64,000 nucleotides of DNA from Amycolatopsis lurida (GTDB taxonomy: Bacteria > Actinomycetota > Actinomycetes > Mycobacteriales > Pseudonocardiaceae): positions 930,001 through 994,000 of the forward strand of contig NZ_FNTA01000004.1 of assembly GCF_900105055.1 (NCBI RefSeq), read 5' to 3'. A program made the translations under genes and the position numbers. Position 1 is the first letter of the stretch, and every line of letters begins with the position of its first letter. Shown one piece after another: positions 1 to 45,714 of the stretch. Below the pieces are notes generated by a model. That model was not told the origin of the DNA, did no database searches, and saw nothing but the letters and a program-made list of their open reading frames with translations.

Positions 1-250
1 CGTGTCGTCCGTCTGATCACACCCGCCGTCCGCCCAATCACGTGAAGCTCCCGGTTCGTTCCCCGAGAGGTGAGGCGAATGTGCCTGGCGGGCAGGCAGT
101 CCGGTCGTGGTCTTTCGTCGGCGCTCATGTCGCGAAAGCCACTTCGGGACATCACACGTCTCGAAAGTGGCTTTCGCGACACGTCAACTTCGCCCCACCC
201 CACGGAACCGAACCGGACGACACGCGTGATCGGACAGCCGGCACGCGTAA
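1..250. repeat. Composite intergenic repeat: 21-bp-period units around a double palindrome
   Basis: This gene-free left edge holds no ORF I would call. Positions 1-50 carry 21-bp-spaced units of the kind seen at 7898-8110 (for example CGTGTCGTCCGTCTG followed by ATCAC at a 21-bp step). Positions 129-180 are a 22-7-23 double palindrome with core GCGAAAGCCACTT and its reverse complement. Positions 209-250 hold the 21-bp units in inverted orientation. The oxidoreductase gene at 275 ends towards it, so it lies at that gene's 3' end and may act as its terminator. The upstream part is cut by the window edge. Confidence 0.75.
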
Positions 251-3753: not shown

Positions 3754-6738
3754 ATGTCAGTGCTCGATTCGGAAACCGGTCAGCGGCCGCCCTCGTCCTC
3801 GGACACCAAGCCCGCGACCGTGCGAGTCATCCGGCGGGACGGCAGCGTGTCCCCCTTCGACGCGAACAAGATCTCGGTCGCCGTGACCAAGGCCTTCCTC
3901 GCCGTCGAGGGCGGTGACGCGGCCGCCTCGTCGCGGATCCACCACCTGGTCAAGGAATTGACGGAGCAGATCGAGACCACCCTGCTCCGCCACGCCGGTC
4001 CCGAGACCGCGCTGCACATCGAGCAGATCCAGGACATCGTCGAGCTCGCACTGATGCGCGGCGAGCACCACAAGGTCGCCCGCGCGTACGTCCTGTACCG
4101 CGATGAGCGCGCGAAGGCCCGCGAGGCCGAGAAGCCCGCGTCGTCCGACGTCGCCATCAGCGTCAAGACCGCCGACGGCTCGCTCCGCCCGCTCGACTGG
4201 GCCCGCGTCTCGCACGTGGTCGGCGAAGCCGTCGCCGACCTCGAGGACGTCTCGGCGGAGCCGGTCCTCGCCGAGGCCAAGCGCAACCTTTACGACGGCA
4301 TCAGCGCCGACGAACTCGCCCTCGCCCAGATCATGGCCGCGCGCGTGCTCGTCGAGCAGGAGCCGAACTACTCCTACGTCAGTGCCCGGCTGCTCGCGGA
4401 CAAGCTCCGCGGCGAGGCGCTCAGCTACCTCGCGGGCGTGCCGCAGCAGGCCAGCCAGGACGAGATGACCGCCCGGTACCCGCAGTACTTCCGGGACTAC
4501 CTCAAGCGCGCCATCGAGCTGGAGCTGGTCAACCCCGAGCTCCAGACCTTCGACCTGGACAAGATCACCGCGGCCATCCGCGCCGAGCGCGACCTCGACT
4601 TCGGCTTCCTCGGCCTGCAGACCCTGTACGACCGGTACTTCCAGCACCACGACGGTGTCCGCTTCGAGCTGCCGCAGGCGTTCTTCATGCGCGTCGCGAT
4701 GGGCCTGGCGATCCGCGAGGACGACCGGGAAGCCCGCGCCATCGAGTTCTACGAGCTGCTCTCGACGTTCCACTTCATGGCGTCCACCCCGACGCTGTTC
4801 AACTCGGGCACCACGCGTCCGCAGCTGTCGTCCTGCTTCCTGACCACGGTCGACGACGACCTGGACTCGATCTTCCAGGCCTACAAGAACAACGCGCTGC
4901 TGGCGAAGTACTCGGGCGGCCTCGGCAACGACTGGACCCCGGTCCGCGGTCTCGGCGCGCACATCAAGGGCACCAACGGCCAGTCGCAGGGTGTCGTGCC
5001 GTTCCTCAAGATCGCCAACGACACCGCGGTCGCGGTGAACCAGGGCGGCAAGCGCAAGGGCGCCGCCTGCGCATACCTCGAGACCTGGCACGTGGACATC
5101 GAGGAATTCCTCGACCTGCGCAAGAACACCGGTGACGACCGTCGCCGCACGCACGACATGAACACCGCGAACTGGGTGCCGGACGAGTTCCTGCGCCGCG
5201 TCGAGGCCGACGCGCAGTGGACGCTGTTCTCGCCGAACGAGACCCCGGACCTGCACGACCTCTACGGCAACGCGTTCGCCGAGCGCTACCGCGAGTACGA
5301 GGCCGCCGCCGAGCGCGGTGAGCTGAAGGTGTTCCGCAAGGTCCGCGCGGTCGACCTGTGGCGCCGCATGCTGACCATGCTGTTCGAGACCGGCCACCCG
5401 TGGATCACCTTCAAGGACCCGTGCAACCTGCGCTCGCCGCAGCAGCACGTGGGTGTCGTGCACTCGTCCAACCTGTGCACCGAGATCACGCTGAACACCA
5501 CCACCGACGAGGTCGCGGTCTGCAACCTCGGCTCGGTGAACCTGCTCAAGCACGTCACCCCCGACGGCTTGGACACCAAGCGGCTCGAGAAGACCGTGCG
5601 CACCGCGGTCCGCATGCTCGACAACGTGATCGACATCAACTTCTACACGATCCCGGAGGCGCGGCGCTCCAACCTGCGGCACCGCCCGATCGGCCTCGGC
5701 CTGATGGGCTTCCAGGACGCGCTGTTCGAGATCGGTGTGCCGCTGTCCTCGGAAGAGGCCGTCCAGTTCGCGGACACCAGCATGGAGCACATCAGCTACT
5801 ACGCGATCTCGGCGTCGACCGACCTCGCCGAGGAGCGCGGCCAGTACCAGACGTTCGAGGGTTCCTTGTGGAGCAAGGGAATCCTGCCGATCGACTCGCT
5901 GCAGCTCCTGATCGACGCCCGGCAGGGCGACGCGCTCGACGTCGACACCTCGTCCACTTTGGACTGGGCGCCGCTGCGCGAGCGGGTCAAGACCGTCGGT
6001 ATGCGCAACTCCAACGTGATGGCGATCGCGCCGACCGCGACGATCTCCAACATCTGCGGCGTCGGGCAGTCGATCGAGCCGCTGTTCCAGAACCTGTTCG
6101 TCAAGTCGAACATGTCCGGTGACTTCACCGTGGTGAACCCGCACCTGGTCCGCTCGCTCAAGGAGCGCGGGCTGTGGGACGAGGTCATGGTGTCGGACCT
6201 GAAGTACTTCGACGGCAGCCTCGGCCAGATCGACCGCGTGCCGGACGACCTGAAGGCGCTGTACGCCACCGCGTTCGAGATCGAGTCCAAGTGGCTGGTG
6301 GACGCCGGTTCGCGTCGTCAGAAGTGGATCGACCAGGCGCAGTCGCTGAACCTGTACATCGCGGCGCCCAGCGGCCGCAAGCTCGACGAGCTGTACCGCT
6401 ACGCCTGGCACAAGGGCCTCAAGACCACGTACTACCTGCGGGCGCGGTCCGCGACGCACGTGGAGAAGAGCACCCTGCGCGGCACCGACGGCAAGCTGAA
6501 CGCGGTCTCGGCCACCCCGGCCCCGGCCACACCCAAGCCTGCCGCCCCGGCTCCGGCTCCCGCCGCTTCGCCCGCCCCATCGGCTTCCGCCGCGGTCCCG
6601 GCCGTCCCGGTGACCGCCCCCGCCCCGGCCGCCAAGCCGGAGCCGAAGGAGATGCCGCAGGTCTCGGACGTCGACTTCGTCGCCACCGACGGCGCAGCCT
6701 GCCGGATCGACGACCCCGACTGCGAAGCCTGCCAGTAA
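3754..6738 (+). CDS. nrdA: Ribonucleoside-diphosphate reductase alpha subunit, class I
   Basis: 994 aa; makes dNDPs from NDPs together with NrdB. Two ATP-cone modules stand at the N-terminus (about 21-118 and 133-225), giving dATP feedback. The catalytic barrel follows, with the NLCTE loop giving thiyl Cys575 with Asn573 and Glu577, and the redox Cys pair Cys361 (QLSSCFL) and Cys590 (VAVCNLGS). An Ala/Pro-rich linker (about 905-965) leads to the C-terminal CEAC swinging dithiol (Cys990, Cys993). The ATG follows GGAG at 3744. The motif CGCCCTYTTGGAGTGA precedes both nrdA and nrdB. The double-cone, long architecture fits alphas that pair with class Ic betas. Confidence 0.95.
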   Translation: MSVLDSETGQRPPSSSDTKPATVRVIRRDGSVSPFDANKISVAVTKAFLAVEGGDAAASSRIHHLVKELTEQIETTLLRHAGPETALHIEQIQDIVELALMRGEHHKVARAYVLYRDERAKAREAEKPASSDVAISVKTADGSLRPLDWARVSHVVGEAVADLEDVSAEPVLAEAKRNLYDGISADELALAQIMAARVLVEQEPNYSYVSARLLADKLRGEALSYLAGVPQQASQDEMTARYPQYFRDYLKRAIELELVNPELQTFDLDKITAAIRAERDLDFGFLGLQTLYDRYFQHHDGVRFELPQAFFMRVAMGLAIREDDREARAIEFYELLSTFHFMASTPTLFNSGTTRPQLSSCFLTTVDDDLDSIFQAYKNNALLAKYSGGLGNDWTPVRGLGAHIKGTNGQSQGVVPFLKIANDTAVAVNQGGKRKGAACAYLETWHVDIEEFLDLRKNTGDDRRRTHDMNTANWVPDEFLRRVEADAQWTLFSPNETPDLHDLYGNAFAERYREYEAAAERGELKVFRKVRAVDLWRRMLTMLFETGHPWITFKDPCNLRSPQQHVGVVHSSNLCTEITLNTTTDEVAVCNLGSVNLLKHVTPDGLDTKRLEKTVRTAVRMLDNVIDINFYTIPEARRSNLRHRPIGLGLMGFQDALFEIGVPLSSEEAVQFADTSMEHISYYAISASTDLAEERGQYQTFEGSLWSKGILPIDSLQLLIDARQGDALDVDTSSTLDWAPLRERVKTVGMRNSNVMAIAPTATISNICGVGQSIEPLFQNLFVKSNMSGDFTVVNPHLVRSLKERGLWDEVMVSDLKYFDGSLGQIDRVPDDLKALYATAFEIESKWLVDAGSRRQKWIDQAQSLNLYIAAPSGRKLDELYRYAWHKGLKTTYYLRARSATHVEKSTLRGTDGKLNAVSATPAPATPKPAAPAPAPAASPAPSASAAVPAVPVTAPAPAAKPEPKEMPQVSDVDFVATDGAACRIDDPDCEACQ

Positions 6739-6746
6739 TACGTCCT

Positions 6747-6788
6747 CGTGAGTGGTAAGGGCGGTTCTAACCGTCCTTACCACTCACG
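6747..6788. repeat. GTGAGTGGTAAGG palindrome, copy 1 (nrdA-nrdB intercistronic)
   Basis: A 20-bp inverted repeat (one G-U pair in RNA) with a 2-nt centre; left arm CGTGAGTGGTAAGGGCGGTT. It fills most of the 73-bp gap between nrdA and nrdB. A second copy lies at 15557-15604. Being inside an operon, it may attenuate or stabilise transcripts rather than simply end them. Confidence 0.85.
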
Positions 6789-6811
6789 ACGCCCTCTTGG
6801 AGTGAGCCTCT

Positions 6812-8133: not shown

Positions 8134-8464
8134 GCGCCTCGGTACGCTCCGGAGTGCTACTGGTTCGCCCGGCCACCCCGGCCGGTCGAGGTAACAGGGA
8201 ACCCGGTGCGAATCCGGGACTGCCCCGCAGCGGTATGTGGGAACGAAAGCCGTCACCGTGCGAGACACGGTAAAGCACTGGGACATGGCGCCCCGGGAAG
8301 CGACGGCCGGTAGGAACGAGCGAGTCGCCCACGAGTCCGAAGACCTGCCCGTGGTACGCGCGCCGACGGCGTGCGTGAGTCCGGGCCTCGTGGGATGGGC
8401 ACGACCGAACGGCGGTCACTCCTGCGCGCTCCTGGCTCTCACGACAAGCTCGCGAGGAGAGAGC
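8134..8464 (+). promoter_or_regulatory. Cobalamin riboswitch and expression platform of metE
   Basis: The conserved core is present: GGTAACAGGGAA, CGGTGCGAATCCGGGACTG, CCCCGCAGCGGTA, and the B12-box-like segment ending GAAGACCTGCC (about 8339-8350). Right after it a 9-bp hairpin (8356-8376) forms. Near the start codon GCTCTC (8435-8440) can pair with GAGAGC (8459-8464) over the ribosome-binding site. Adenosylcobalamin binding would be expected to shut off metE, as is known for B12-repressed methionine synthases. The exact switching helices are inferred. Confidence 0.9.
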
Positions 8465-10743: not shown

Positions 10744-10796
10744 TCCGTGAAGGCCTCCTTCCCTACCCCAAAGGTAGCGAAGGAGGCCTTCACGGA
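10744..10796. repeat. AAGGCCTCCTT palindrome, copy 1; likely metE terminator
   Basis: 24-bp arms with a single mismatch (left arm begins TCCGTGAAGGCCTCCTTC) and a 5-nt loop, 5 bp after the metE stop. It belongs to the same family as 21031-21089, 27781-27821 and 50084-50138. Confidence 0.85.
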
Positions 10797-15556: not shown

Positions 15557-15604
15557 CCTCGTGAGTGGTAAGGACGGTTAGAACCGTCCTTACCACTCAC
15601 GAGG
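15557..15604. repeat. GTGAGTGGTAAGG palindrome, copy 2
   Basis: 23-bp perfect arms (CCTCGTGAGTGGTAAGG plus ACGGTT) separated by AG. It sits between the stop of the LCP gene (15612) and the start of the acetyltransferase (15550), both on the minus strand. Compared with copy 1 at 6747-6788 only the centre and one arm base differ. Confidence 0.88.
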
Positions 15605-24957: not shown

Positions 24958-26586
<1,629 letters not shown>

Positions 26587-26728: not shown

Positions 26729-27397
26729 TCACGGCCCGGTGAGGGTGATCTGGACCGCGACAGCCCGCTCCGCCGCGTCTTCCAGCACCGTGCGGCGCGG
26801 TTCGGCGATGTCGAGAACGCGGGCCTCGGCACGCTGGAACAACGGGGCGAGACGGTTGTCCTCGCGCAGGGACTCCAGGGCACGGCGGTCACCGCCGAGC
26901 ACGACGGCGTCCACTTCGGACAGTTGCGGGACGAGCACCTCGAACGCGTCGTCCGCGGCGGACCGAAGCGCCGAGCGCGCTTGTCCTTCCCGCCGCCGCG
27001 CGAACCGTTGCTGAGACCAGCCACCCGCCGCGGACCGGCCCTGGACGAGATGACGGTCCGTCCTGGACTGGACGACCACTCCCCCGCGCGCGATCCCGAC
27101 ACTGTGCCCGCCGCGGCGCACCAGCAGGAGCGCGATCCTCCGCGAGATCAGCGCGTGCTCGACGAGCGGGCCGACGGCGAGACCCGGCACGGTTCCTCCG
27201 GCGCTCAGCGGTCCGAAAGGGACGGTCGCGACGGCTACCACGCCATTGTCGGCGGTGACCGTGACGGTGTCCGGGCTCAGCTCGGTCTCGCGGACGCCTT
27301 CATTGCGGACGGCGAACCTGGCGTACCACCCTTCGAGGCGATCCGGCGCGACCTCGACCGCCCGTCCCCCGCCCGCTACCTGCCGTTCCCTCGCCAT
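26729..27397 (-). CDS. acVLRF1-type peptidyl-tRNA hydrolase (Vms1-like release factor)
   Basis: 222 aa. The stretch GGHSVGIARGGVVVQS, followed by GRSAAGGWSQQRFARRREGQ, is the signature of the actinobacterial VLRF1 family, which shares the eRF1-like catalytic domain of Vms1/ANKZF1. The glutamine of GGWSQQRF is the expected tRNA-cleaving residue. The C-terminal half (VLPQLSEVDAVVLGGDR) fits an eRF1 domain-3-like ending. It should release nascent chains from peptidyl-tRNA on stalled large subunits. It lies upstream of the ABC-F gene on the same strand, with 142 bp between them. The start MARERQ is the first reasonable ATG. Confidence 0.85.
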   Translation of the reverse strand: MARERQVAGGGRAVEVAPDRLEGWYARFAVRNEGVRETELSPDTVTVTADNGVVAVATVPFGPLSAGGTVPGLAVGPLVEHALISRRIALLLVRRGGHSVGIARGGVVVQSRTDRHLVQGRSAAGGWSQQRFARRREGQARSALRSAADDAFEVLVPQLSEVDAVVLGGDRRALESLREDNRLAPLFQRAEARVLDIAEPRRTVLEDAAERAVAVQITLTGP

Positions 27398-27477
27398 GGG
27401 TTCAACGTACGGGGCGTGGCGCGGATCGGCAGGGGTCGGACGTTGCCGTTTCGCGGCGACGCTCCGGCTGCGGCCGT

Positions 27478-27530
27478 GTTGCGAAAGCCACTTTCGCAAC
27501 GTTGAAGGTTGCGAAAGTGGCTTTCGCAAC
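27478..27530. repeat. Double-palindrome repeat (23-7-23), copy 2
   Basis: Two reverse-complementary 23-bp units separated by 7 bp. Each unit is itself a palindrome with 10-bp arms (core GCGAAAGCCACTTTCGC). It is the first of three copies in the 438-bp gene-free stretch 27398-27835, which otherwise holds only shorter repeated flanks (GCCGTTTCGCGGC at about 27447 and 27681). Confidence 0.9.
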
Positions 27531-27577
27531 GCACGCCGCGGCTGGGGCGAGTAGGCGCGACGCTCCCGATCGGAGGT

Positions 27578-27630
27578 GTCGCGAAAGCCACTTTCGGGAC
27601 ACCAGACGTCGCGAAAGTGGCTTTCGCGAC
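27578..27630. repeat. Double-palindrome repeat (23-7-23), copy 3
   Basis: Same geometry as 27478-27530. The outer bases read GTC/GAC instead of GTT/AAC on both arms of the second unit, so the change is compensated and pairing is kept. One arm of the first unit has a mismatch (CGGGAC). Confidence 0.9.
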
Positions 27631-27712
27631 ACCACCCGATCCGCCTGGCAAGCCAGAAGCCCCTACCCGTGCGACCGTCGCCGTTTCGCGGCAACGACAG
27701 ACGCGTGCGGGC

Positions 27713-27764
27713 GTTGCGAAGCCACTTTCGCAACGTTGAGGGTTGTGAAAGTGGCTTTCGCGAC
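27713..27764. repeat. Double-palindrome repeat, copy 4
   Basis: A 22-7-23 version: the first unit has lost one A (GCGAAGCCACTTTCGC). The second carries GTTGTG against CGCGAC, so its end pairing is weakened. Same orientation as the two copies before it. Confidence 0.88.
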
Positions 27765-27780
27765 ACCAGCCACCACGCGA

Positions 27781-27821
27781 AAGGTCCCCTTCTCTCGGTT
27801 CAGCCGAGAGAAGGGGACCTT
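27781..27821 (-). terminator. AAGG(T/C)CCCCTT palindrome after the S8 protease gene
   Basis: AAGGTCCCCTTCTCTCGG (27781-27798), a 5-nt loop and the perfect complement (27804-27821): an 18-bp stem starting 15 bp beyond the protease stop. A family member in which the inner sequence CTCTCGG/CCGAGAG differs from other copies but pairing is kept. Confidence 0.75.
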
Positions 27822-27835
27822 CACGAACAAGAGAG

Positions 27836-30742
27836 CTAGACCGGCTTCACCGGACCGCGCCCCACCGACTTCCCGACACCCGCGGGCCGCTCCGCCACCC
27901 CGGGCTGAACGAAACCGTTGATGTGCAAGGAGATGGAGCGGATCGACCCGGTGTCGCCACCGGCGACGTCCACCGCGGTGAACTTCCAGGTGCCGTCAGC
28001 CACACCGGCGGCCAGGCCGCCGAGCGCCTGCGCCGGCTTGTAGGTACCGGTGAACGGAGCGGCCACCGCGTTCACCGAACTGAACGCGGTGGCCGCGTTG
28101 TCGGCGAAGACGACCTGGCAAAGGTTGTTGCCCGAGCCGCCGCTGCGCTGGAACACGGTCGCCTTCGCACCCGAGGGCGACGTCAGCGTGCCGACCAGGT
28201 CACCGACGTACGAGTGGTTGATGCCCACCGTCGCCGAGGTCTGGTCCGCGTTGCAGGTCGCCCCGTCCACCGAGAACGTCAGCTTCGACGCACGCCCGAC
28301 GCCGCTCACCGTGATCGGCACGGTCACGCCGGTCGGGTCGCTGTCCGGGATCGCCACCGCGTCTCCGGCGTAGGCGAAGTCCCGCGACACCGGCGACGGG
28401 GTGCCGACCGGCAGCGAGAACGTGGACGTCGTCGGCGAGTACGAACCCGCGAAGGTCACGCGCGCGTTCAGCACCACCGGCACCCCGAGTTCCTGCGTGG
28501 CGGGAACGGTGATGGTGAAGTCGTTCACGCCGGTCTGCCCGGGGCTGATCGTGCCGTACGACTTCGACCGCGGCGCCACCGTGACACCCGGGGTCGGGCT
28601 GGAGAGCACGACGCTGGTGGACGTCGCGGTGCCGTCGCCGCGGTTGGTCACCGGCAGGGTCACCTTGGCGGTGTCGCCCGGGTCGAGCGCGGACCCGCCG
28701 TCGGCCGGGGTGACCGTCGGCTGGCCCGCGGACGCGAGCGGCTGCGGGCTGGCGCCGGTATAGGCGAGCACCTTGTCGGCGAGGATGACGCCCGCACCGC
28801 TGGAGTTGTCGCGTCCCGGGGCGAGGATGTCGACGGCGGTGTTGATCAGCGCCTCGCGCACGTCGGCCGGGGGCAGCCCCGGGTTGCCCGAGAGCACCAG
28901 GCCCGCGATCGCGGCGGCGTGCGGCGCGGCGGCCGACGTGCCGTAGAACGTGGTGAAGCCGGTGACGCTGGTCGAGACGCCGTCGGCCGCGGTGATGTCC
29001 GGCTTGGCGCGGACCTCACCACCGGTCGCGGACACGTTGCCCGGGGTGATCGGCGTTCCGTCGGCCTGGTAGAACATCCGCCGCGGACCGTCCGAAGTGA
29101 ACCGTTCGACCTTCGTGGTCGCGCCGAAGGCACCGGGGAACGGACCCGCCGGGTTGGCCGGGTCGCCCGGTTCGAGGGCACGGGGGAACGCCTTGGCCGC
29201 CGGTGCCGCCGCGACGCTGAACGCGTCCCGCGCGGCCGAGTGGCCGACGGTCACACCGGGGCTGGTGTAGGCCTTGAGGCCATCGGCCGAGTCGGAGAAC
29301 CGGCCGCGCAGCGCGGACAGCGAAAGGTAGCGGCCTTCCCCGGAGAACTTGACGATGGCCAGTCGCAGTCCGGCGACGCCCGTGGTGTCCACCCGTTCGT
29401 AAGCGTCCTGAGTGCCGCTCTGGACGTCCTGGCTGAAGTCGACGACGTTGCCCGCCGCGTTCAGCAGGTACAGGTCGTAGTCGTTGTTCGAGCGGCCCAG
29501 CGGGTCGGACCAGAACAGCGTGACCGGCACCCGGCCCGAAGCGCTCGAGAGCGGCTGGAAGATCTGGTTGCCCGCGGCCCCGGCGAAATTGTGCGCGGTA
29601 CCGGCGTATTTGCCGACGCTCTTGCCGGAGTCGACGAAGTCGCCTTCCCAGTGGCCCGAGGTGCCGTCGGTGACGTTGCCTTCGTTGCCGGCCGAGGAGA
29701 AGTACAGCGCGCCGTCGGCGGTCACGTCGTTGACGGCCTGCGCGATGATCCAGTCCTGGAACGGCGATTCCTTGAAGTACAGGACGTCGTCGACGATGAC
29801 GTCGCAGCCCGCGTCGAACCGCAGTTTGCGGATGTTGTCGGCGAAACTGGCGTCGGAGTTGAACGCGCTGGCGAAACCGAGCGCCGCGTTCGGTGCGAGA
29901 TCGTGGATGATCTCGAGCATCGCGGTGCCCTCGTCGCCCTCGCCTTCCTGGCCGGGGATCACGTCGACGCCCGCCGGGAGTTCGCCGCGCGCCTGCGAGG
30001 TCGCGAGCGAGTCGATCCCGTCGGACAGCGCGCAGATCTTCGTGCCGACGCCGGTGACGCCGAACTGCTGGCGCGCGGTGTCCGCGTTGTGCGCGCGGTC
30101 GCCCTCGCTGTTGATCGGTCCTGCGGCGATACCCGGCTGTCCCTTGGCGTCGACGGCCTTCTTCAGCTCATCCGCGATCCGGGCGGCCTTCTCCTCCTTG
30201 CTCTCCCGCTTGCCCGCGGTGGCGGGCTCGGCGAGCTGGCGGGCGGTGAACGCCTCGTTGGCGGTCTCGACCTTCTTGACGTCGGCGCGGGCCGCGATCG
30301 CCGAGACCGCGTTCAGCGGAACCTCGGCGCGCACGCTGCCGTACCGTTCGGACACCGCGCGAATCCCCGCACCGGATTCCCGCAGTCCCTTGAGGAGTTC
30401 TTCCGAGACCTGGCCCCGGATGTCCACGAGTACGGTGCCGGCCGCGGAGACATTCGCCCCAGACCCCAGTGCGGGAACCGCGGAGGCCGACATCCGCTGA
30501 GCGCGGAGTTTCTGTTCGACGAGCAGTCGGCTGTCCACTTTGGACTCGCCGGCGTTCTGGCTCTTCTTGATCGACTGCAGCGCTTCGATCTGCCGGACGG
30601 TGTTCGCCGAGAACGCGTCCGGGGATCCGCCGCTTTCGGCCGCCGCGACGGGCGGGCTCACCAGACCGAGCGCGGTGACGAGGGCCGCGGTGCCCGCGGT
30701 CAGGATCGTTCTTCTTCTCCTACTAGAACGGGTTGGACGCAC
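27836..30742 (-). CDS. Secreted S8 (subtilisin-like) serine protease with P-domain
   Basis: 968 aa. It has a basic Sec signal peptide (residues 1-35, ending VAAAESGG), a propeptide-like region to about 220, then the S8 domain with Asp241 (ALSDGID), oxyanion Asn353 (SSAGNEG) and Ser603 (YGTSAAAPHA). The position of the catalytic His (HGT) reads EGT (Glu271); His280 in IIHDLAP is nearby. A CARDB-like or Ig-like region (about 670-790) and a C-terminal proprotein-convertase P-domain follow. It is probably exported and processed. The His-to-Glu change makes its mechanism uncertain. Confidence 0.88.
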   Translation of the reverse strand: MRPTRSSRRRRTILTAGTAALVTALGLVSPPVAAAESGGSPDAFSANTVRQIEALQSIKKSQNAGESKVDSRLLVEQKLRAQRMSASAVPALGSGANVSAAGTVLVDIRGQVSEELLKGLRESGAGIRAVSERYGSVRAEVPLNAVSAIAARADVKKVETANEAFTARQLAEPATAGKRESKEEKAARIADELKKAVDAKGQPGIAAGPINSEGDRAHNADTARQQFGVTGVGTKICALSDGIDSLATSQARGELPAGVDVIPGQEGEGDEGTAMLEIIHDLAPNAALGFASAFNSDASFADNIRKLRFDAGCDVIVDDVLYFKESPFQDWIIAQAVNDVTADGALYFSSAGNEGNVTDGTSGHWEGDFVDSGKSVGKYAGTAHNFAGAAGNQIFQPLSSASGRVPVTLFWSDPLGRSNNDYDLYLLNAAGNVVDFSQDVQSGTQDAYERVDTTGVAGLRLAIVKFSGEGRYLSLSALRGRFSDSADGLKAYTSPGVTVGHSAARDAFSVAAAPAAKAFPRALEPGDPANPAGPFPGAFGATTKVERFTSDGPRRMFYQADGTPITPGNVSATGGEVRAKPDITAADGVSTSVTGFTTFYGTSAAAPHAAAIAGLVLSGNPGLPPADVREALINTAVDILAPGRDNSSGAGVILADKVLAYTGASPQPLASAGQPTVTPADGGSALDPGDTAKVTLPVTNRGDGTATSTSVVLSSPTPGVTVAPRSKSYGTISPGQTGVNDFTITVPATQELGVPVVLNARVTFAGSYSPTTSTFSLPVGTPSPVSRDFAYAGDAVAIPDSDPTGVTVPITVSGVGRASKLTFSVDGATCNADQTSATVGINHSYVGDLVGTLTSPSGAKATVFQRSGGSGNNLCQVVFADNAATAFSSVNAVAAPFTGTYKPAQALGGLAAGVADGTWKFTAVDVAGGDTGSIRSISLHINGFVQPGVAERPAGVGKSVGRGPVKPV

Positions 30743-35411: not shown

Positions 35412-35419
35412 CCCCTCCC

Positions 35420-35484
35420 GCAATTCGTCATCTACTTGCGCTCCTTGCGCGGGCAAGGACCATCGCAAGTAGATGACGAATTGC
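35420..35484. repeat. CAATTCGTCATCTACTTG palindrome, full inverted copy
   Basis: 21-bp perfect arms (from CGCAAGTAGATGACGAATTG) around a 23-nt loop that has its own CCTTGC/GCAAGG stem. It lies between the convergent EAL-GGDEF and sulfotransferase genes and should terminate both. A run of ten G (35486-35495) follows directly. Single arms of this repeat are at 56641-56661 and 62244-62265. Confidence 0.88.
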
Positions 35485-35499
35485 AGGGGGGGGGGAGGT

Positions 35500-43042: not shown

Positions 43043-43061
43043 TGCGAAAGCCACTTTCGCA
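43043..43061. repeat. Single GCGAAAGCCACTTTCGC palindrome (3' of cysNC)
   Basis: TGCGAAAG-CCA-CTTTCGCA, 8-bp arms. It is one half of the 23-7-23 element seen elsewhere. It lies 21 bp after the cysNC stop, between convergent genes, and may serve as their terminator. Confidence 0.8.
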
Positions 43062-45624: not shown

Positions 45625-45632
45625 GGCGCCGA

Positions 45633-45650
45633 GTATACCGATCGGTTGAC
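45633..45650. promoter_or_regulatory. TetR operator O1
   Basis: GTATACCGATCGGTTGAC, the same 18-mer as O2 with three changes at its right end, which breaks the symmetry. It starts 9 bp before the tetR ATG. The centres of O1 and O2 are 48 bp apart, so bound dimers lie at a spacing of about 4.5 turns. Confidence 0.75.
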
Positions 45651-45680
45651 CCGGCGGCGAAAAGCGGGAACACTCCCCAA

Positions 45681-45698
45681 GTATACCGATCGGTATAC
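45681..45698. promoter_or_regulatory. TetR operator O2
   Basis: GTATACCGATCGGTATAC, a perfect 18-bp palindrome 16 bp before the MFS start codon, next to the ribosome-binding site GAGAAGGAGA. Occupancy should block the transporter promoter or its early transcription. Confidence 0.85.
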
Positions 45699-45714
45699 AC
45701 GAGAAGGAGAGCTG

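Follow-up and report, generated by a model that had tools for sequence, protein, structure and literature searches.

A dispersed double-palindrome hairpin repeat of Amycolatopsis lurida with an architecture like that of REPIN and BIME elements

K repeats and related hairpins in the window

The window, by which we mean the whole 64-kb stretch of DNA analyzed here, lies within the 9.05-Mb genome of Amycolatopsis lurida; the relatives compared with it include A. roodepoortensis (G283), A. keratiniphila (G107), and A. azurea (G085). Between two genes on the minus strand, one of them encoding an S8 peptidase, the locus carries copies of a palindromic repeat that we call K, together with a related hairpin of the GAAGG class, and both kinds of sequence recur elsewhere in the window. 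The features, with window coordinates, are as follows.

26729..27397, minus strand: neighboring gene, called with a home-made gene finder; 85 nt separate its start from the first K core
27478..27530, unstranded: K element of type I, 23-7-23, exact, loop GTTGAAG
27578..27630, unstranded: K element of type II, 23-7-23, exact, loop ACCAGAC
27713..27764, unstranded: K element of type I, 22-7-23, one A missing from the first unit
27776..27826, unstranded: GAAGG-class hairpin related to K, 13-17-13, core end 13 nt past the stop of the S8 peptidase gene
27836..30742, minus strand: neighboring gene, subtilase (PF00082) with a P-domain, its 3' end towards the K repeats
129..181, unstranded: degenerate type II K element, core spacing 29 bp rather than 30, a base having been lost
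43043..43061, unstranded: lone K unit with no partner
10744..10796, unstranded: GAAGG-class hairpin, 13-17-13, core 9 nt past a stop codon
21031..21089, unstranded: GAAGG-class hairpin, 13-17-13, core 7 nt past a stop codon
50084..50138, unstranded: GAAGG-class hairpin, 13-17-13, core 15 nt past a stop codon

The double-palindrome repeats are real: the K core GCGAAAGCCACTTTCGC matches the window 13 times at up to 3 mismatches, against a shuffle mean of 0.24 and a largest shuffle of 2, and the window has five perfect 5-3-5 palindromes followed 30 bp on by a partner that is their reverse complement with at most 1 mismatch, of which 100 Markov shuffles gave none. An earlier note on this DNA had described three tandem copies of a 23-7-23 element, with others at two further sites. 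That build is exact in the first two copies, whereas the third is 22-7-23; the three copies are there, but they run in the order I, II, I, are separated by 47 and 82 bp of unrelated sequence, and share no single repeated unit, so the reading as a classical tandem repeat was dropped. Both further sites do hold K sequence, one as a degenerate element and the other as a lone unit. The arm change from GTT/AAC to GTC/GAC, which the note had taken to be compensated, marks two dispersed subtypes of K. In a search of the window at the Rfam gathering score, nothing matched the K repeats, and the sole window match was a cobalamin riboswitch (RF00174, 83.5 bits) at 8144-8366. A comparison of 171 window bases with plasmids and phages gave no match, under a low-complexity filter that might mask some.

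Copy number, spacing, and subtypes of K

A genome-wide search for the core, as the earlier note had proposed, found 178 exact copies of the 13-mer GAAAGCCACTTTC in A. lurida (93 forward and 85 reverse) and none of the reversed control; among 26 genomes of the genus Amycolatopsis, copy number ranged from 0 to 258, with 258 perfect doublets in A. roodepoortensis; G085, G107, G278, and G141 are likewise K-rich. When a gap of 2 to 32 nt was allowed, 1032 inverted core pairs were found in 17 of the 297 genomes of the family, and in 1027 of these pairs, from the same 17 genomes, the gap was exactly 17 nt, which sets the core centers 30 bp apart. The spacer thus varies in sequence at a constant length, as had been claimed. 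The middle sequences of the Amycolatopsis copies are quite unlike those of the g5 and Pseudonocardia copies, and descent of one sequence by itself therefore does not readily account for the constant length. The two 13-bp palindromic cores have the order GAAAG-CCA-CTTTC ... GAAAG-TGG-CTTTC; in 864 kb of A. lurida, 52 runs were CCA-then-TGG and none was TGG-then-CCA. The same 864 kb held 52 inverted doublets, a count favored by the choice of 40 stretches of 20 kb for their exact 13-mers, nearly all of which are pairs. They also held three direct pairs, one four-unit run, and 27 single units, which were counted at up to 2 mismatches, so that some are probably chance matches and two are the degenerate pair at 134/163.

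The same spacing extends beyond K. In the A. lurida genome, 330 pairs fit the generic pattern GAARGNNNCYTTC-gap-GAARGNNNCYTTC, 314 of them with exactly 17 nt, and non-K pairs stood 30 bp apart in 27 of 34 cases in the 864 kb of A. lurida, in 31 of 36 from other Amycolatopsis-side loci, in 9 of 15 from G223 (parts of which were masked), and in none from Pseudonocardia loci. Three-unit GAARGNNNCYTTC ladders with exact 30-bp steps were found at L056 277-349, L059 8945-9017, L127 4815-4887, and L057 16772-16844; adjacent units of such ladders could form alternative pairings that exclude one another. One GAAGG subclass keeps to the ruler less strictly, with a different gap in 10 of 75 listed pairs from four genomes, and in G546, from another family of the order, 9 of 12 listed pairs have an 18-nt gap. 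Outside the family the generic pattern is rare, being present in 20 of 296 genomes of the class, A. lurida included. Eight genomes of family f18 (G366, G405, G437, G491, G501, G565, G608, and G624) each carry one nearly identical core pair whose order is reversed, with GAAAGTGGCTTTC leading and 20 nt between the cores, and G511 has a reversed-order pair with a 19-nt gap; the f18 pair looks like one conserved hairpin locus.

Type I is about threefold commoner than type II in the A. lurida set (47 against 16), and the two types tend to stand side by side. K neighbors within 200 bp were I-II in 13 of 13 cases in A. lurida, in 10 of 11 at further named Amycolatopsis loci, and in 6 of 6 in A. roodepoortensis stretches, a count that allowed mismatches and is biased towards the sampled places. 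Among the exact A. lurida matches listed (the best 50 of 63 places), 6 of 11 type II copies adjoin an exact type I copy, and no two adjoining type I copies occur. A whole-genome pattern for K neighbors 34 to 64 nt apart returned 47, 13, 9, and 8 clusters in four genomes; by their arms, 66 of the 75 clusters listed (of 77) were clearly I-II, 2 were II-II, and 7 had a variant arm. Two K-rich genomes, G141 with 101 doublets and G278 with 124, had no clusters at this spacing; among the matches listed, the copies were all type II in G141 (25 of 101) and all type I in G278 (7 of 124).

Twenty composites of type I, a spacer S, and type II, hand-picked for look-alike spacers, align over about 155 bp with the spacer consensus GTCGGCCGTGGCCGGGCCCGGTACCGCCCTGGCGATCAT. 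In two of the composites (L281 and L292) the type I half is down to one unit, and further modules beyond the composite recur in mosaic order; the I-II spacer of the window itself does not clearly match the S sequence. Four clusters in A. azurea share another recurrent composite spacer, about GCATCACGACCACCC...GGCATCGAG, and a similar spacer occurs in A. roodepoortensis (C4:1236664).

The edges of the element were read from 138 distinct Amycolatopsis copies (83 type I and 55 type II), whose arms pair at 91-100% through position 5. In type I, pairing of 92-99% over the first five arm positions drops to 31% at position 6, giving a sharp 53-bp edge, while type II still pairs at 64% at position 6; position 7 has a mild G/C preference. 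No consistent target-site duplication was found around the 138 copies at offsets of 3-10 and lengths of 2-9; the largest excesses of direct repeats over shuffles were small, 8 against 2.4 (4 nt, offset 4 from the core) and 21 against 13.1 (2 nt, offset 7). A consistent target-site duplication, the mark of a MITE of a DDE transposon, was thus missing in these copies, and that candidate was rejected.

Folding, gene context, and orthologous sites

As plus-strand RNA, the first two K copies of the window are predicted to fold into one long stem at -42.0 and -41.1 kcal/mol (z of -9.8 and -9.3), type I forming a single stem of 23 bp around a loop of 7 nt; for a lone unit the predicted energy is -9.1 kcal/mol. 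The earlier note had left the choice between one long stem and two hairpins, and had suggested looking for covariation across many aligned copies. Such covariation is present in the inner stem: in 193 Amycolatopsis copies its six pairs were paired at 0.826, against a shuffle mean of 0.656 and maximum of 0.679, and two-sided changes in these pairs numbered 218 against 72 in shuffles, both figures ignoring the relatedness of the copies. In the Amycolatopsis set, pairing within the two units (0.765 and 0.743) was likewise above that in shuffles (0.674 and 0.644), as it also was in the set from TRM90224, and covariation is therefore no arbiter between the two structures. The long stem is the minimum-energy fold, and the folding model would favor it over two hairpins. 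In 17 Pseudonocardia-side copies the outer long stem was paired at 0.765 (shuffle mean, 0.761) and the inner stem at 0.755 (mean, 0.639; maximum, 0.765), which is within the shuffle range; unit 1 stood at 0.50 (mean, 0.47) and unit 2 at 0.686 (mean, 0.613; maximum, 0.676).

Gene context was judged from 789 genes called by the home-made finder in the 864 kb of A. lurida, in stretches mostly picked for carrying K. At up to 2 mismatches, 31 K sites lay between co-directional genes, 19 between convergent genes, 2 between divergent genes, and 1 at an edge; divergent gene pairs are thus avoided (2 of 52, against 26% by random placement). Among non-K relatives, those no more than 40 nt from a stop codon numbered 23 of 26 in A. 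lurida, 6 of 7 in A. roodepoortensis stretches, 13 of 21 at other Amycolatopsis loci, and 3 of 8 in G223. For K, the corresponding figures were 15 of 48 in A. lurida (31%, against 24% under random placement), 15 of 80 at other Amycolatopsis loci, and 5 of 19 in a third set. In P. xinjiangensis and four g5 genomes, the K core pair lay 5-28 nt past a stop in all 16 non-divergent cases, and in Pseudonocardia sp. TRM90224, 12 of 26 K copies were within 40 nt of a stop, while 3 of 35 were called inside genes. No terminator-like site with a U-tract was found at window positions 27300-27950; given this and the 15 of 48 copies near stops, a simple intrinsic terminator was dropped as a reading of K.

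The intergenic region beside the S8 peptidase gene could be trimmed for comparison in 10 relatives, an eleventh (G183) being left out because no trimming was possible. K is present in 5 of the 10 and missing in 5. In 8 of them the peptidase end carries a GAAGG-type hairpin, which is degenerate in G171 and G054; its arm and loop families vary by species. The type I copy at 27478 is missing from A. roodepoortensis, where both flanks align, though with gaps, and where the type II copy and the last K copy are retained. This is one fairly clean empty site of the kind the earlier note had proposed to compare in relatives, but at the others additional bases differ as well; sequence identity to the relatives near the locus is 89-96%, and most empty sites are blurred accordingly. 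Blind stretches aligned over more than 1500 bases to A. lurida loci in 7 of 20 cases from G223 and 12 of 20 from A. roodepoortensis, and repeated rows for one site under other locus numbers were left uncounted. Two orthologous sites (L040/L257 and L045/L264) keep the same K copies, so turnover is not fast, and one lone unit of A. lurida (L070, 9961) corresponds to a full type II doublet in A. roodepoortensis. No excision or insertion event of K was seen in the species comparisons.

Relation to known repeats and possible origin of K

The spread of REP and REPIN sequences is attributed to RAYT transposases, and the BIMEs of Escherichia coli are mosaics of unlike REPs with conserved spacer motifs. 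K resembles BIMEs in that its unlike palindromic types I and II are joined through the conserved spacer S, and differs in that each half is itself a doublet and in that no RAYT was found; the likeness is one of architecture. The RAYT gene that the earlier note had proposed to look for did not appear: none of 29 genomes, A. lurida and the most K-rich one among them, had a match to Y1_Tnp (PF01797) at E 0.001, in a search whose control was positive in 5 of 14 control genomes. By column consensus, no conserved GTAG stands beside the 83 type I or the 55 type II copies. Type I has TTGC in place of a CGTC tag, the TGTC of type II is base-paired, and the loop of a unit is 3 nt. With neither a PF01797 match nor a GTAG or CGTC tag, the RAYT reading fails. 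What survives of the original proposal is the likeness to REP and BIME elements, which is supported by the doublets, the fixed spacer length, the compensated arms, the mosaics, the avoidance of divergent gene pairs, and the presence or absence of copies between species.

REPINs are described as inverted doublets whose intervening sequence is kept for its length and its capacity to form a hairpin, with compensatory changes (Bertels and Rainey 2011, PMC3116915). Measured against this account, K is alike in having more inverted doublets than singles, a spacer kept in length over letters, compensatory changes, and an extragenic location, and unlike in its core distance of 30 bp rather than the 71 bp of GI, the lack of a RAYT in the tested genomes, and its actinobacterial host. 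A classical REP or REPIN moved by a RAYT would match K in the architecture described in PMC3116915, but we find it scarcely credible, given the absence of PF01797 in 29 of 29 genomes with working positive controls and of the GTAG tag. CGTC REPs, according to Di Nocera et al. (2013, PMC3733652), have no dedicated transposase and consist of an unpaired CGTC or TGTC tag, a stem of 8-9 bp, a loop of 4-5 nt, and a CCA tail; they offer a precedent for a RAYT-free REP-like element, though among tagged REPs. Like the GTAG and CGTC REPs described there, K is palindromic, intergenic, found as dimers, and placed between co-directional and convergent genes; unlike them, it has no unpaired GTAG or CGTC tag, and the loop of its unit is shorter, 3 nt against 4-5 nt in CGTC REPs (PMC3733652). 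The main text of that paper makes no mention of Actinobacteria, Streptomyces, Mycobacterium, Actinomycet, or Frankia. None of the six core sequences was found in the literature, and the accessible literature on these genera yielded nothing about such repeats.

K also invites comparison with intrinsic or bidirectional terminators, since stable 13-17-13 hairpins stand right past stop codons in the same genome and the K core does likewise in P. xinjiangensis and four g5 genomes; it differs from them in that the Amycolatopsis copies are mostly farther from stops, have no U-tract in the window, and are far more uniform than such a function needs. K might accordingly be a host-owned set of 3'-end hairpins, terminators or RNA stabilizers, immobile and homogenized between sites by recombination. 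This explanation, which we hold to be doubtful, draws on the 16 of 16 non-divergent cases with the core 5-28 nt past a stop in those five genomes, on the stop-proximal non-K relatives (23/26 in A. lurida, 6/7, and 13/21), on the single slot that carries a hairpin of differing arm families in 8 of 10 relatives, and on a folding energy of about -40 kcal/mol. It fits poorly with the K copies of A. lurida (15/48 within 40 nt of a stop, against 24% at random) and of other Amycolatopsis loci (15/80), with window copies that lie beyond a hairpin already at the stop and have no U-tract terminator, with the G223 relatives (just 3/8 near a stop), and with a copy number of 0-258 inside one genus. The 30-bp geometry is common to stop-codon hairpins that look immobile, so geometry alone is no proof of transposition.

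Two other explanations start from that geometry. If template switching perfected quasi-palindromes and slippage multiplied 30-bp units, with neither selection nor transposition, K could be a mutational product; arms, inner stems, and three-unit ladders do hold one 30-bp symmetry across unrelated sequences, and loss of 30 bp can yield lone units. Near-identical copies at many unrelated loci, the sharp 53-bp edge, the I-S-II composites, and the constant 17-nt gap would all be left unexplained, and we judge this origin unlikely. Alternatively, a dimeric protein might bind the pairs as double sites in duplex DNA whose dyads lie some three helical turns from each other, in a nucleoid or supercoiling role comparable to that of gyrase at E. 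coli REPs; the two dyad-symmetric 13-bp cores at a 30-bp center distance in 1027 of 1032 pairs would allow this. Binding to duplex DNA, however, needs no pairing of the inner stem, which exceeds shuffles in the Amycolatopsis sets, and the fixed core order (52 CCA-then-TGG runs and none reversed in 864 kb of A. lurida) also speaks against such sites, making this account very unlikely.

The sharp 53-bp edge, the lack of a consistent target duplication, and the presence or absence of a copy at an orthologous site mean that K behaves like a REPIN or BIME, and from this we infer that it is mobile. We lean, if only slightly, toward the view that K makes up a family of miniature hairpin elements, dispersed and REPIN/BIME-like, that is spread by an enzyme other than a RAYT; our best reading is that it forms a REPIN-like branch of a 3'-end hairpin family, served by a putative non-RAYT process. 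The replicating unit would be the inverted doublet of the 13-bp palindromic core with exactly 17 nt between, and spacer S would link subtypes I and II in a composite some 155 bp long. Copies might spread as folded single-stranded or cruciform DNA, copied by a putative non-RAYT enzyme that gauges the 30 bp from core to core; slippage between the two near-direct-repeat units could give rise to lone units and to ladders with 30-bp steps. Transcribed copies may act on RNA 3' ends, stabilizing or ending transcripts, an effect that would be a by-product tolerated away from promoters. It is possible, more tentatively, that a whole, new actinobacterial hairpin superfamily is set by geometry rather than by sequence (two 13-bp 5-3-5 palindromes exactly 30 bp apart, some in 30-bp ladders) and copied by a putative non-RAYT enzyme, one branch providing 3'-end hairpins past stop codons and the K branch forming a mobile, BIME-like mosaic.

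A REPIN signature in genomes where a RAYT search came back empty implies either that another enzyme does the same job or that the signature arises without one. The 30-bp ruler, the I-II pairing rule, and the range from 0 to 258 copies in one genus should make the responsible factor findable by genome comparison, and the link to hairpins past stop codons hints at how a terminator could turn into a mobile repeat.

The window holds several further features. A second hairpin family, CGTGAGTGGTAAGGACGGTT with its complement, whose arms are not palindromic, is present at 15557-15604 and 6737-6798, and the similar GTGAGTGGTGAGGACGGTT occurs near K composites in A. roodepoortensis. A 29-nt inverted repeat containing CGTCATCTACTTGCG lies at 35412-35492, and at another A. 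lurida locus (L064) the similar GTCATCTACTTGCG adjoins a K copy. Nested palindromes with ACCGATCGGTATAC, operator-like in appearance, are found between divergent predicted genes at 45627-45701, and an ABC-F-like protein with two ABC domains and an ABC_tran_Xtn linker is encoded at 24958-26586.
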